NCBI GenBank assembly: GCA_024639785.1
Contig: JAHEGI010000007.1
Span: forward strand, 8,885-72,884
Direction of reading: 5' to 3'
Length of the DNA stretch: 64,000 nt
Source: Cryomorphaceae bacterium
Lineage (GTDB): Bacteria > Bacteroidota > Bacteroidia > Flavobacteriales > Schleiferiaceae
In this document: in pieces, positions 57,691 through 64,000 of the stretch
How the letters are laid out: each line of letters begins with the position of its first letter
Position numbering within the stretch: the stretch's first letter is position 1
The notes under the pieces: generated by a model
Database searches by the model: none
Seen by the model: only the letters and a program-made list of their open reading frames with translations
Told to the model about the DNA's origin: nothing
Program-made: the position numbers and the translations under genes

Positions 57691-59091
57691 CTAGAGCCAG
57701 CGTGCCACCATGGCAATGAGCTTACGCTTCCACTCGGTGTAGGGAGGAGCCAAAAGCATGGTGGGGGACCAGCGGCCACGACGGTAAATACTGCGGGCAT
57801 TGGTGAACTCACGGAAGCCCCATAATCCATGAGACTTTCCGATGCCCGAAGTGTTCACTCCACCAAAGGGCAAGGAGGGATGCATGTAATGCAGAAAGAA
57901 ATCATTAATGACCGTTGCTCCTGCGCGGGTCGCTGCGGTAATCCCATCGGACCATGCGCGATCATGACTCAATTGGTATAGAACTAAGGGGCGACTTCCG
58001 GATTCCACATGCGCAATGGCATCTGCGGTTTCGATATAGGTATACACCGGCAAAATGGGACCAAAAATTTCAGAGCAACTCAACTCAATATCTTTCGGAG
58101 CATCCCAAACCAAGGTCAAGGGGTAATACTTCGAGCTGCGATCGGGGCGGTCAATTTGCCAAATTTCTGCGCCGCCCGCGCGGGCTTCCTCAACCCAGGC
58201 TTCGAGGCGATCCCAGTGCCGTTCATGGACAATATGGGCAAAGTCAGGATTTTCTGCAGGACGCGCTCCATAGTATTGACGCACGCCCGTTTGAAAACCG
58301 GCGATGAAGGCCTCTCGTTGGTCTTTTCGGACCAAGGCATAATCGGGAGCAATGCAGACTTGACCTGCATTTAAGCCTTTCGCCCAGGCAACCCGATTGC
58401 CTGCAGTTTCGGCGCCAAATTTTGGATGGACAATCACGGGTGATTTACCGCCCAATTCCAGTGTGACAGAGGTCAGGTGCCGCGCAGCTGTAGCCATAAC
58501 CTGGCTGCCGATTTTGGGCGATCCAGTAAAAAACAGGTGATTCCAAGGTTGATCTAATAAACCTTTGGCGACTTCGACGCCCCCTTCCACTACCTGGACC
58601 TCCTCCGGAGGAAAAACGCTGGCAATCAGCTTAGTCAAAAAAGCAGAGGTGGCGGGCGAAAGTTCCGAGGGCTTCAGGGCTACACTATTGCCTGCAGCCA
58701 CCGCGTACACGAGCGGGACTAAGCATAAGTTAATGGGGAAGTTCCAGGGCGACACAATGAGTACGGCGCCTTTGGATTCATAGACTACTTCGGCTGAGCC
58801 AGGAATGAGGGTAATCGGCAATCCGTGTTTTTCTGGGCGCATCCAGGTGCGCAAGTGCTTTACGACATAGTCGATGGTCGACGTAACCGGGAGCAGTTCG
58901 TTGAGATCCGTATCGGGTTCAGCACGGTGGAGGTCCGCCCGCAGTGCAGCATGCGCTTCCGCTCGGTGTGCGTGCAACGCTTTTTTAAGCGAACGCAAGC
59001 GGGCGATGCGCTCTGCAGCGCGCCGACGTCCCAGGACGGGCGCGCTGGCTTGAAGCTGTGCAAAAATTGACTCTAGGTTGGGCTGTTCCAT
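57691..59091 (-). CDS. Aldehyde dehydrogenase, class 3-like (NAD(P)-dependent)
   Basis: 466 aa. ALDH signature residues: VSPWNFPINLCL (cofactor loop), FFTGSPKIGSQV, catalytic Glu in LELGGKSP, and catalytic Cys in NAGQVCIAPDY. The C-terminal HYMHPSLPFGGVNTSGIGKSHG matches class 3 / fatty-aldehyde and coniferyl-aldehyde type enzymes. It oxidises an aldehyde to an acid; substrate unresolved. It starts 24 bp after the ABC ATPase stop and may be read from the metal operon upstream. Confidence 0.93.
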   Translation of the reverse strand: MEQPNLESIFAQLQASAPVLGRRRAAERIARLRSLKKALHAHRAEAHAALRADLHRAEPDTDLNELLPVTSTIDYVVKHLRTWMRPEKHGLPITLIPGSAEVVYESKGAVLIVSPWNFPINLCLVPLVYAVAAGNSVALKPSELSPATSAFLTKLIASVFPPEEVQVVEGGVEVAKGLLDQPWNHLFFTGSPKIGSQVMATAARHLTSVTLELGGKSPVIVHPKFGAETAGNRVAWAKGLNAGQVCIAPDYALVRKDQREAFIAGFQTGVRQYYGARPAENPDFAHIVHERHWDRLEAWVEEARAGGAEIWQIDRPDRSSKYYPLTLVWDAPKDIELSCSEIFGPILPVYTYIETADAIAHVESGSRPLVLYQLSHDRAWSDGITAATRAGATVINDFFLHYMHPSLPFGGVNTSGIGKSHGLWGFREFTNARSIYRRGRWSPTMLLAPPYTEWKRKLIAMVARWL

Positions 59092-59115: not shown

Positions 59116-59808
59116 TTATCGGTTCTTGGTATCACTTTCGATTTGCCCATCGCGCAAACGAATGATGCGATGCGCATGTTGCGCAATCTCTTCTTCGTGA
59201 GTAACCACCACCAAGGTATTTCCAGAGGCATGAATGGCGTCAAAGAGCTTCATGATTTCCACAGAGGTTGTGCTGTCCAAGTTGCCCGTGGGCTCGTCCG
59301 CCAAAATCATGGAAGGGTGGTTGACCAAAGCGCGCGCGATCGCGACCCGTTGCCTTTGTCCGCCAGAAAGCTGATTGGGCCGGTGATCCATGCGATCCTC
59401 GAGTCCAACTTGACCGAGAACTTCTTCAGCGCGCTGGACGCGGTCTTCTTTACTTCTTCCAGCATAGACCAGGGGCAGGGCCACATTCTGCACGGCGGTT
59501 TGTCGCGGGATCAAATTAAATGTTTGAAAAACGAAGCCAATCTCTTTGTTGCGCACCGCAGCGAGATCATTGTCATCCATTTGGCTCACATCCCGACCCG
59601 CGAGGGTGTAACTGCCTGAAGTTGGCGTATCGAGGCAACCGAGCAAATTCATGAGGGTAGACTTACCACTACCGGAAGGCCCCATCAAAGCGACATACTC
59701 CCCTTTTTGAATATCCAGGTCGATGCCTTTCAGCACATGGACCGTTTGCGCTCCGAGTTGGAAGTCACGCTTGATGTTGCGCAGAGAGATAACAGAAGTT
59801 TCAGCCAT
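59116..59808 (-). CDS. ABC transporter ATP-binding protein (MacB/LolD type)
   Basis: 230 aa. Walker [11 protein letters not shown]-loop [10 protein letters not shown], signature [15 protein letters not shown], Walker [14 protein letters not shown], then the switch His in [13 protein letters not shown]. The extended family feature is MacB/LolD-like. Its membrane partner is missing from the window. It lies 8 bp behind the TonB receptor and 24 bp before the aldehyde dehydrogenase. Whether it serves the metal cluster or an unlinked permease is open. Confidence 0.92.
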
Positions 59809-59816
59809 GATAGGAC

Positions 59817-61976
59817 TTAGAGGGCAATATTAGTGCCAAGGTAGAGCATGCGCCCAAAAATTGGACCCCAAATTCGAGTCGCATCAAAATGGCTTTGGAA
59901 GTAGGGATCCGAAGGTAGTAATGGCTGGGAGGTCTGTGGTGAAACCGCACCATCGATGGGATTAGATTGCGTCACATTCAGGGCATTTTCCATTCCGATG
60001 TAAAGGTCGCCGCCCTTGAACTCATGTCGAATTTGAGCACTCAGTAAATGAAAAGCTGGAGCGTAATCTATAGCGGGGCGGATACTTGGATCTATTCCTG
60101 GGATCGCCTGTTTTCCATAGCGTTGTAGGGTGACATCCATGACGACGCCTCCCTTGAAAGATCGACTGTAGTGGACCATCAATCGGTGGGGAGCCACGAA
60201 GGGCACGGGGAGCGTCATGAGACCATTTCCATTCACGTCATCTGAGTAATAGGACGCCTTTAAATCTTGATAGCGGTAGGCCATGCGCAATTCGCTGCGC
60301 TTATTCAAGTTATAATTGATGCTAATTCCCGCAGAAATTGACTGCAGCGGAATAGATCCTGGCCAATCCCGAATGGTCACAGGGTAGATGCTCCGTTCTC
60401 CTGGGGTATAAAAGTCATGGATCACCGCACGCTGGAACTGGGTTCGGTGGAGATCGGCCTGAATTCCTCCAGCCATGTAATTGAGCATAAAGGGATGCGA
60501 ATAACTCAAGCCCATATTGGTGGCAGATTCCATCGATAGCAGGTCGCCGCCAAGGACTTGCCCATACTGCTCCCAACGGATAAAACGTTGACTTGCCAGT
60601 CGCCCATACTCCTCCAATAAAGGCTGGGCCATGCGGAAACCTCGACCTGCGACCACCCGGAAGGTGTGCGAAGTCCAGGGTTCCCAACGCATGTGGAAAC
60701 GAGGAGAAAATTGATTCCCGGCAATGGAATGCGCATCTACGCGCATCCCGAGGACCGCCGTAAATCGCTCTTCCGTTTGGTAGGTCCATTCGGTAGATAG
60801 GCCAACATTATTCTCCACCCAAGGCCGGCCATTACCAAGCTCCAATCGGTCGAGCCCAACCTGGTACGCATCATGTTGCAGGATGAGCGCTGAAGTTTGA
60901 ACCAGGGCACCCCAGCCATGATAGTATAGAACTTGGGCCATACCCCCATTTTGAATGCCTCGAAGCTGGCTGTAAAGCGAACTTGGGGCTGTCCCTTTAG
61001 GTAGGCCCATTTGGACGCCCAACTCGTGGCTATAGACTTGGACAATGGAACCGAAAGACTGTTCGGGAAGATCTGGATTTACCCAGCCCGTCTTTGCCGT
61101 AAAAGCAAGCCGCCCTTGTTTGATTTGGGATGTCCAAAGTTGATCAGCTCCTATGCCGGGGGCAAAAGCATTGGCCATTTGCCCACCCTGCTTGACGTCT
61201 TCCAAGGCATGAAACGTATAGAGACCTTCCCAGCCGTTTTGGCCGAAATATCGGGCGCGCAGCATGCCGTTGACCTGGTAGCCCAGGGGATTATCCAAAA
61301 ACCCATCCCCATTGACATCCGTTCCGCGCTGCCGGCCACTAAAGTGTCCTAAACTAGAGATCATCCACTTTTTGTTGAGGCGAACCCCATAGGCTTCGTT
61401 GATTTCGAACCGACCCCCCTGGTTGAAATATCCGTTGAGCAAGACGTCCCCACGCCCTTCGGAGTCGGGAGCGGCTGCGGCGTCCACCAGGTCTTCGGGC
61501 TTGAGGAGCTCGACGTTAATTTGACCGGTCATACTCTCTGGGCCATGGTTTACTGCCCCTATGCCCTTTGTCAATTGAATGCCTTGGACCCATGTCCCAG
61601 GTATAAATTGCAACCCGGAGTTTGCCAATAAGCCTCGGACCAAAGGCGTCATTTCGACTTGAATCTGGGCGTATTTCCCTGCAAGCCCAAAGAGTTGAAT
61701 TTGCTTGGTCCCAGTCACCGCATCGGTAAAAGCGACATCAATACTTGGGTTGGTTTCAAAGCTCTCAGATAAATTACAGCAGGCCGCTTTTTTTAGTTCG
61801 GTTCGAGAAATGTTCAGATCAAGTTGAGCGGACTTACTATCAATGGAAAGTCCAGCCGCATCTTCCCGGATCGTGACTTCTTTTATTTGAAGGCTTTGAT
61901 ACAAGCTGGTATCTACTTGCCCAAAAAGAGGCAAGGAAAGGAAGCATAATGATCCGAAGACCAGTCGTTTGATCAT
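59817..61976 (-). CDS. TonB-dependent outer-membrane receptor, metal-type
   Basis: 719 aa. Signal about 1-20 ([20 protein letters not shown]). The plug domain (about 55-170) begins [19 protein letters not shown], in which the CC pair (C66-C67) is shared with receptors beside HMA-domain proteins. [16 protein letters not shown] and [16 protein letters not shown] follow. The remainder is an outer-membrane beta-barrel, and the C-terminal residue is preceded by a run of hydrophobic residues ([12 protein letters not shown]). Energised by TonB, it likely imports a metal, probably copper, or a chelate. It overlaps the HMA gene by 4 nt. Confidence 0.9.
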
Positions 61977-62326
61977 CCTCCGTGGGCCTTGACCACCTGT
62001 TCATCCCGGTATTTACAGCAGGCATGTACTTTGGCGTAATCCTCGTCTTTGGCTTTGACTAGCGGGGTGTCATGGCCGACAGCGGCCACGGCTCTTTGCA
62101 GGTCAAGTTCAGACACTTTCTTGGGGTTGTAGACCACCCAGGTCTCGTGGCTTTCGATAGTCCAATCGGCCGTCCAAACCCCATCTATATCTAACAAAGC
62201 CGATTCAATGCGCTTTTCGCACATGCCACAGACCCCATCGGTGTTAAAACGAAGTTCTACTTTTTTCTGTGCGAAGACAGAGACCGAACTAAAGACTAAA
62301 AATAAAAGAGCGTACACAGGCTTCAT
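61973..62326 (-). CDS. Periplasmic heavy-metal-associated (HMA) domain protein
   Basis: 117 aa. Signal of about 19 residues, then a single HMA fold whose metal loop reads GVCGMCEKR (C33, C36), a CxxC. The C-terminus has a second thiol group HACCKYR (C103, C104), unusual for plain HMA domains. The protein presumably passes Cu(I) or another soft metal between periplasm and the receptor. It shares one base with the upstream peroxidase gene and overlaps the receptor gene by 4 nt, so all are coupled. Confidence 0.88.
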   Translation of the reverse strand: MKPVYALLFLVFSSVSVFAQKKVELRFNTDGVCGMCEKRIESALLDIDGVWTADWTIESHETWVVYNPKKVSELDLQRAVAAVGHDTPLVKAKDEDYAKVHACCKYRDEQVVKAHGG

Positions 62327-63420
62327 CAGAATGGATTTTGGTACAAGGTATCGGTTTCGATTCGGGTATCCGTCAAGGTGTTCAAAAATGCCACGAGGGC
62401 TTGACGTTGACTCAAGCTGAGATTCAAGCCTTGCTGAGAACCAGATTGGGTTTGAATAAATCCAATCATGCTAGGGTCCAAATTGGGCGACTGATCCATC
62501 ACGCCAGAGTTGTAAAATTCAATCACTTGCTCCAACGTCTGAAAGCGGCCATCGTGCATATAGGGCGCCGTGTAGGCCACATTGCGCAGAGAAGGAACTT
62601 TGAATTTACCATGGTCCGCAGTGGCTCCAGTGACCCCGCCCAACCCGATATCGGTCAAGTTGCTATCGAGGCCATTGTTCATGAATTTGTGGTTGGTGAA
62701 TAAAGCTCCTCCATGGCAGTGAAAGCAGTCCGCTCCGGGGGTTGGACTGTTGGGATTGGATTCCCCATTGAACAATTGGAATCCAAGTTGCTCCTCGGCC
62801 GTAAGCGTTTCTGTGCCGGCTACAAAGCGATCGAACTTACTCTCACCCCCACTTAAAATAGCCAGCATAAATTGCTCCAAAGCCAGACCCATCCGATCCG
62901 GGGTCACCTCGTCATCCCCGAAGGCGGCTTCAAATGCCCCTTGGTAGCGTGGCTGGCGCTGAAGTTTCTCAACCACATGAAGGACGTCTTCCTTCATTTC
63001 AATGGGATTCGAAATGGGCTCAAGGGCCTGTTCACGTAGACTAGGCGAGCGTCCATCCCAAAAAAAATGATGGTGCCACGCCAAATTGTGCAAGGGCATG
63101 GAGTTTCGGTCTCCCACGGATCCATCCACGCCGGTACTATACACCTGGCCATTGTCGGTAAATCCGAACGCAGAGCTATGGCAGGAGCCGCAGCTTTGGC
63201 TGCTGTCTAGGGATAAAATAGGATCATAAAAAAGCTGTCGGCCCAAAAGAATTCCTTCGACACTGAGCGGGTTGTCAGCAGGTAAATCAGGTTGGGGAAA
63301 TCCGTTTGGAATCTGAAGGACATACGGGGTGGTCACATGCGGCTTTTTGCCCCAAAACTCATTGCATGAAGTAAAGGCAACACAACTAACACCAATAAGG
63401 AAGAGAATACGCCACTTCAT
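62326..63420 (-). CDS. Di-heme cytochrome c peroxidase family lipoprotein (MauG/MbnH-like)
   Basis: 364 aa. Lipobox FTSC (Cys19) makes it a lipoprotein facing the periplasm or surface. Two heme c sites: CGSCH (77-81) and CFHCH (232-236). The conserved region between hemes includes WDGRSPSLREQALEPI. A late APYMHDGRF is typical for this peroxidase group. The neighbour upstream is an MbnP-like protein. In known pairs the di-heme MbnH oxidises a Trp of MbnP to kynurenine for copper binding, so the same role is plausible here; plain peroxide removal is the alternative. Confidence 0.88.
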   Translation of the reverse strand: MKWRILFLIGVSCVAFTSCNEFWGKKPHVTTPYVLQIPNGFPQPDLPADNPLSVEGILLGRQLFYDPILSLDSSQSCGSCHSSAFGFTDNGQVYSTGVDGSVGDRNSMPLHNLAWHHHFFWDGRSPSLREQALEPISNPIEMKEDVLHVVEKLQRQPRYQGAFEAAFGDDEVTPDRMGLALEQFMLAILSGGESKFDRFVAGTETLTAEEQLGFQLFNGESNPNSPTPGADCFHCHGGALFTNHKFMNNGLDSNLTDIGLGGVTGATADHGKFKVPSLRNVAYTAPYMHDGRFQTLEQVIEFYNSGVMDQSPNLDPSMIGFIQTQSGSQQGLNLSLSQRQALVAFLNTLTDTRIETDTLYQNPF

Positions 63421-63432
63421 TTGCCCCGTTCT

Positions 63433-64000
63433 TTAAGGTACCAAAGATTCAAACGAAAAACTCTGAGCTAAGTTCTCGGAAAGCTTGTGCGCCAAGCCAT
63501 TGTCAAAGGTGCTGTGTGAAAAATCACCATCTTCTACAGGACTCAAATCATGGACGGCTTTAAAAAACTTCTCCAAATCCATATTTAAGGTGAGTGTTTT
63601 ATGATCCGTCAAGTCGAGTGGCGCCATGACCACGACATCCATTTTGTTTTCCATCAGGGCAATATGGTAGAGCCAGGGCTTTTCTGCTCCCCCTTCTTGG
63701 TAGTACCCTTCCATCGCAGCAAAAATGTAGCCTCCGGTCCAGCCCCAATGCAAGTTGTTCACATTCGGATTCAAGGGGTGGGGGCCACTCCAGATGCTGG
63801 GATCCCCGTGGTTAGTAGCGGAATCGAGTCCGATGCTAAAGGCAAAACCTGCATATTGACCCGGCGTGATTACGGCAGGAATACTCAAAGTAGACTTGTC
63901 GGGCAAGGAGATATGCGCATATTCATTGCGGAGATCCACGCGCGCACCCTGCTCCGTGATCAAGGCAAATTCAGAGAAAATCATATCCGCCCGGGTGAAC
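63433..64000 (-). CDS. MbnP-like copper-binding protein, 5' end outside window
   Basis: At least 189 codons; the frame is open through the right edge, so the N-terminus and signal are missing. The C-terminal part shows FALITEQGARVDL, YAGFAFSIGLDSATNHGD, then PNVNNLHWGWTGGYIFAAMEGY: the Trp-rich pattern of MbnP family proteins. The N-terminal FTRADMIFSEFAL just inside the edge matches the family beta-start. Copper binding is known for MbnP of methanotrophs. It lies 12 bp before the di-heme peroxidase, its usual partner. Confidence 0.75.
   Translation of the reverse strand, partial: FTRADMIFSEFALITEQGARVDLRNEYAHISLPDKSTLSIPAVITPGQYAGFAFSIGLDSATNHGDPSIWSGPHPLNPNVNNLHWGWTGGYIFAAMEGYYQEGGAEKPWLYHIALMENKMDVVVMAPLDLTDHKTLTLNMDLEKFFKAVHDLSPVEDGDFSHSTFDNGLAHKLSENLAQSFSFESLVP

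Follow-up and report, generated by a model that had tools for sequence, protein, structure and literature searches.

What joins MbnP and MbnH, a protein pair known from the copper biology of methanotrophs, to an HMA-domain protein and a TonB-dependent receptor in a member of the Schleiferiaceae? The genes in question lie at the end of a 64,000-nt stretch of a Cryomorphaceae bacterium genome (GenBank GCA_024639785.1, contig JAHEGI010000007.1, positions 8,885 to 72,884). We refer to this whole stretch as the window, and we also fetched contig sequence past its edge (position p of the resulting locus, L002, is window position p + 57115). The operon consists of two joined modules, the MbnP-MbnH pair and an HMA-receptor module. 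We think it likely that this is an outer-membrane/periplasmic copper-acquisition operon that supplies cytochrome c oxidase.

The genes on the minus strand follow one another in the order MbnP, MbnH, HMA protein, TonB receptor, ABC ATPase and aldehyde dehydrogenase. The MbnP stop and the MbnH start are separated by 12 nt, MbnH overlaps the HMA gene by 1 nt, and the HMA gene overlaps the receptor gene by 4 nt, which agrees with the original prediction of four minus-strand genes with gaps of 12 bp or less or overlaps of 1-4 nt. The quartet that it described as a unit is present, but its MbnP was truncated by the window edge (its true start corresponds to window position 64173), and the run is extended by the ATPase gene, which starts 8 nt past the receptor, and by the dehydrogenase gene 24 nt further on. 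It also missed a divergent SCO1/SenC gene, which lies on the opposite strand, just beyond the window, and begins 45 nt away from the start codon of MbnP. The product of this gene scores 84.2 bits against SCO1/SenC (cut-off 22.8), and its CxxxC motif is present as CPSIC.

Full-length MbnP is a 246-aa lipoprotein with the lipobox LTAC. Its assignment as MbnP-like with an HWGW segment held when the proposed check against PF20243 was run, since it scored 102.6 bits where the Pfam cut-off is 27 (E 1.1e-29 in the whole-genome search), and HWGW is present. A single-sequence search of the PDB with MbnP found no match, and the profile search gave an alignment to 7l6g, the solved MbnP of M. trichosporium. 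The AlphaFold model of a relative 78% identical to the window MbnP (pLDDT 89.9, pTM 0.84) likewise matched only 7l6g chains below E 0.001, with a TM-score of about 0.5. The first and second Trp of WxW are both invariant in related MbnP sequences in two alignments, and the H170 column holds His in 82/85 random Bacteroidota MbnP sequences. MbnH reportedly converts the first Trp of WxW to kynurenine, and the copper site of M. trichosporium MbnP is said to consist of His, Met, solvent and this kynurenine. Where Met is absent beside the first Trp, His is enriched there (5/7 vs 7/68, Fisher p 0.0008, in an unbiased set whose sequences are related, so that the figure is a lead only). A strict swap of Met or His at this place was dismissed, as Leu-Tyr occupies it in several proteins of quartet B. 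MbnP-family proteins lacking an intact WxW also adjoin MbnH at seven loci (L036, L180, L183, L185, L187, L189 and L190).

The di-haem protein is MbnH/MauG-like, judging by its sequence. It scores 184.5 bits against the CCP_MauG family, its best NCBIfam match is TIGR04039 at 227 bits with the MauG profile next at 169, and its residues 36-363, nearly the whole length, align to the MbnH structure 6e1c (E 3.8e-42). Both CxxCH haem sites (C77-H81 and C232-H236) are present and invariant across all compared sequences. The Y303 column holds Tyr in 14/14 genus sequences and in 81/89 random ones, the remaining 8 having Phe. Y303 aligns with Tyr294 of MauG, an axial haem ligand in that enzyme. The description of this gene as encoding an MbnH-like lipoprotein of the di-haem peroxidase family was thus borne out. 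Could it be an ordinary H2O2-detoxifying cytochrome c peroxidase, with MbnP left unmodified? The large CCP_MauG family does include peroxidases such as 1iqc, but 1iqc has Met where the MauG and MbnH tyrosines align, the nearest profile is that of MbnH, and the di-haem protein always adjoins MbnP or is fused with it; we regard a simple peroxidase as very improbable. A second di-haem MauG/CCP protein is encoded elsewhere in the same genome (L273:8274-9422, contig C16). It is 43% identical to MbnH, has no MbnP partner in the genome, and has relatives in several members of the genus.

The pairing of MbnP with MbnH extends well beyond this operon. MbnP was found in 78/297 Bacteroidota genomes, and MbnH adjoined it in all 80 of the random MbnP loci that were fetched. 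The two are fused into a single ORF in 44 loci, mostly from Verrucomicrobiota but also from Sphaerotilus natans (L083, L085, L093, L098, L104, L127 and 38 more), which supports an enzyme-substrate relationship. At seven other loci (L156, L161, L165-L168 and L172), a different, OprC-like TonB receptor stands beside MbnP-MbnH; it is preceded by a lipoprotein of about 307 aa, and both are upstream of the pair. Of these seven receptors, three were scored; each had TIGR01778 (TonB-dependent copper receptor) as its best profile, below the cut-off. The presence of this second receptor type indicates that the pair has joined TonB receptors more than once. The association that the original prediction put forward, of the pair with a TonB receptor, is real and lineage-wide in our operon; MbnT-like TonB receptors near MbnP/MbnH have already been reported in methanotrophs (PMC3621798). 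Our literature searches turned up no open-access work on the MbnP of Bacteroidota.

The second module combines the HMA protein with the receptor. The HMA protein falls just short of the PF00403 cut-off (22.9 vs 24.8 bits), with its CxxC present as CGMC, and its nearest solved domains are those of Cu(I) ATPases and CopZ. C33, C36, C103 and C104 are invariant among 15 sequences. The receptor passes the PF00593 beta-barrel cut-off (42.4 vs 27 bits). In its structural model the barrel is modelled and the plug is poor (pLDDT <50 at residues 1-125 and 130-157), and a Foldseek search with this model did not tell copper, siderophore and cobalamin receptors apart. The extra CC of the HMA protein and the CC in the N-terminus of the receptor were found where they had been described, but they are not special to the combination with MbnP. 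The HMA family occurs in 74/198 genomes, most members carrying the C-terminal CC. Among 20 HMA loci picked from the best matches, 18 carry the receptor family with the CC motif and none carries MbnP/MbnH. The receptor CC is retained by 27/27 members of the receptor family, and its motif is also found in stand-alone HMA-receptor modules; the CC sites are therefore no sign of the MbnP combination and belong to a widespread module that usually lacks MbnP/MbnH. HMA::receptor fusions are encoded at L256:5394-8096 and L270:5133-7643. In both, the HMA domain is N-terminal to the plug and barrel and hence on the periplasmic side, in support of a hand-over there.

The genome around the operon is 1.8 Mb in size and 98% complete. 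We found no E1-E2 P-type ATPase in it, whereas one is present in each of the 14 control genomes. The search for HMA-domain proteins gave only two, that of the operon and an unlinked HMA::MauE membrane protein (L276:7165-7893, contig C4) of a kind that is rare among Bacteroidota (12/148 genomes). A second SCO gene sits among genes for oxidase assembly, on the contig that also encodes the one CuA oxidase, away from the operon. The lack of a P-type ATPase, together with the SCO and CuA oxidase genes, suggests that the need for copper could be met outside the cytoplasm.

These data also bear on whether the operon serves another soft metal, or copper detoxification instead of uptake. HMA proteins are often part of resistance systems, and the HMA protein here has weak scores to MerP and MerTP. 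Against this, TonB receptors import, an SCO chaperone is adjacent, the solved relative of MbnP makes it a copper family, the HMA protein is nearest to Cu(I) domains, and no metal ATPase capable of copper export was found in the genome. A role in detoxification or with another metal is in our view improbable.

How far is the joining of the two modules conserved? A survey of gene neighbourhoods had been proposed as a check. The quartet is present across the genus, on an Owenweeksiaceae contig (L070) that carries the same run, and in a second lineage of Bacteroidota. The run SCO-MbnP-MbnH-HMA-receptor occurs in the same order, at least partly on one contig, in 12 of the 19 genus genomes (our own included), which have been deposited as Cryomorphaceae, Schleiferiaceae, Flavobacteriales or Owenweeksia sp. 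TMED14. Contig ends interrupt it in 6 further genomes, and the one remaining genome, without any part of the run, is 68% complete. Losses in G006, G012 and G016 were considered and rejected, as contig ends explain the apparent absence. The divergent SCO1/SenC gene is found in each genus locus whose contig extends that far, and the ABC ATPase comes directly after the receptor in each of the 17 genus loci that were listed. Gene order and content are thus kept while receptor identity within the genus drops to 46-52%, which argues that the operon is more than a chance arrangement.

The second lineage (L082, L092, L099, L102, L106 and L120) has the order TBDT-[HMA::MauE]-MbnP-MbnH-HMA, TBDT being the TonB-dependent receptor. 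In L099 a second MbnP replaces HMA::MauE, and the contig of L106 stops short of the HMA gene. The unlinked HMA::MauE protein of our genome is 42% identical to L102:9276-9992, which lies inside a cluster of this lineage. A single origin of both quartet lineages was not rejected by the MbnH tree (p 0.41-0.42, in a one-clade test that excluded a second, unrelated MbnH of L120) or by the receptor tree (p 0.505). The two arrangements may have arisen once or twice.

The same survey gives some ground for a looser relationship, in which MbnP-MbnH would be a periplasmic copper store/delivery pair acting via SCO, while the HMA-receptor module would be a separate uptake system that is co-regulated only, with no direct contact. 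Each module stands alone in many genomes, and G025 and G028 carry both modules unlinked in the same genome. The coupling nevertheless persists across a divergent genus and reappears with a different gene order in the second lineage, and in other loci MbnP/MbnH adjoins TonB receptors of a second type. Mere co-regulation of this kind appears rather unlikely to us.

We therefore favour copper acquisition by the joined operon, for which the following scheme can be proposed. Copper or a copper chelate would enter the periplasm through the TonB receptor, and Cu(I) would be handed over by thiol exchange, at the plug's inner face, from the receptor CC to the CxxC/CC of the HMA protein. MbnH probably oxidises the first Trp of HWGW in MbnP (W143) to kynurenine, which would complete a Cu(I) site. 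The SCO chaperone, encoded divergently, would next receive the copper and deliver it to the CuA oxidase. MbnP itself could act as a capture protein on the outside, or as a store or relay on the inside. We infer copper as the metal, import as the direction and the formation of kynurenine, each of which seems reasonable, and also the order of transfer. In its most specific form, the scheme combines the kynurenine site on MbnP with a relay of Cys pairs that starts at the receptor CC, continues through the CxxC/CC of the HMA protein and ends at SCO. Such a line would feed the oxidase wholly outside the cytoplasm and with no copper ATPase, and would use a changed MbnP site with His beside the modified Trp and Leu for the motif-near Met. 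We advance this form tentatively, as one somewhat more apt to be wrong than right. The features concerned are listed in Table 1.

Table 1. Positions in the window of the genes of the operon and of their candidate functional sites.
Feature	Position	Strand	Evidence
MbnP-family lipoprotein, C-terminal 188 aa in window	63433..64000	-	PF20243 102.6 bits
HWGW motif H142-W145, with W143 as predicted kynurenine site	63739..63750	-	Aligns with AWNW of 7l6g
H170 of MbnP, candidate copper ligand	63664..63666	-	Column conservation; aligns with His of 7l6g
MbnH/MauG-like di-haem lipoprotein	62326..63420	-	CCP_MauG 184.5 bits; TIGR04039 227 bits
First haem motif CGSCH (77-81)	63178..63192	-	Invariant in compared sequences
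Second haem motif CFHCH (232-236)	62713..62727	-	Invariant in compared sequences
MbnH Y303, equivalent of MauG axial Tyr294	62512..62514	-	Alignments with MauG and 1iqc
Secreted HMA-domain protein, 117 aa, signal peptide	61973..62326	-	PF00403 22.9 bits; CGMC (33-36), CC (103-104)
TonB-dependent receptor, 719 aa	59817..61976	-	PF00593 42.4 bits
Receptor CC pair C66-C67, inside a 16-residue motif	61776..61781	-	CC kept in 27/27 family receptors
ABC-transporter ATPase	59116..59808	-	ABC_tran 128.8 bits
Aldehyde dehydrogenase, final gene of the same-strand run	57691..59091	-	Aldedh 249 bits

Several observations weigh against copper acquisition by this route. MbnP fails the equivalog TIGR04052 (MbnP_like_WxW), with 39.3 bits where the cut-off is 140, and the 227 bits of MbnH are below the cut-off of 363 for TIGR04039, a hypothetical equivalog. 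The methionines that in 7l6g stand two positions ahead of the motif Trp and of the conserved His are both Leu in the window MbnP. The receptor lacks the OprC-type CxxxM and HxM motifs, and it has no NCBIfam copper-receptor match, with none to TIGR01778 at E 1e-5. Finally, the two modules are mostly apart across Bacteroidota, neither needing the other, and the HMA-receptor module is absent from all 80 of the fetched MbnP loci.

Comparison with described systems sets these points in context. The operon shares with the MbnP/MbnH of methanotrophs (TIGR04052/TIGR04039; 7l6g, 6e1c) the protein families, the gene pair, WxW, the His and the MauG-type di-haem enzyme, and, as here, the methanotroph pair is sometimes near a TonB receptor (PMC3621798). 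It differs in having no methanobactin genes, in the HMA shuttle and the other kind of receptor that accompany the pair, in scores below the equivalog cut-offs, and in its MbnP, which has Leu at the motif-near methionines and a single Cys. This is Cys18 of the lipobox; the extra cysteines are absent from the window MbnP, so that it does not match the four-Cys motif of 7l6g (as taken from the molecule name of that entry).

CorA/CorB and MopE/SACCP likewise comprise a copper protein with a Trp-derived kynurenine and a di-haem partner, but unlike our operon they include no receptor or HMA gene. CorA binds Cu(I) via two His, water and a second-sphere kynurenine (PMC3912023), and MbnP proteins have no marked sequence similarity to MopE or CorA (PMC3621798). 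The Bacteroidota HMA + TonB receptor module of the CC type has the same HMA and receptor families and the same CC sites as found here; it normally lacks MbnP/MbnH and is sometimes a single fused gene (L256, L270).

Among copper receptors, a precedent is offered by CrtA of Bordetella and Pseudomonas, a TonB copper importer that serves haem-copper oxidases exclusively and a few of whose operons include ScoI genes (PMC12914433). It belongs to a different receptor family from ours, is described with no mention of MbnP/MbnH and uses chelated Cu(II). OprC (TIGR01778; PMC8610252) is also a copper TonB barrel, and barrels of this sort are similar to that of the window receptor in Foldseek; CxxxM and HxM are present in OprC and absent from our receptor, which has no TIGR01778 match. 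Each part of the operon is known, while their conserved combination appears to be a line of copper supply that has not been described.

The aldehyde dehydrogenase at the end of the run follows the ATPase in most genus loci and is missing from several; it is probably unrelated functionally. Inspection by eye of the intergenic stretch between MbnP and SCO revealed no motif shared genus-wide, and a scan for consensus promoters and terminators returned no more sites than in shuffled sequence.

How copper crosses the outer membrane has been worked out in few bacteria other than some proteobacteria. The operon, its rearranged counterpart and the two types of fusion provide a concrete, testable set of partners, namely MbnH with MbnP, the HMA protein with the receptor, and an oxidase chaperone, and so bear on what MbnP/MbnH do outside methanotrophs. 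If our reading is true, the kynurenine copper site would be a part of routine copper nutrition in planktonic Bacteroidota and not a speciality of methanotrophs.

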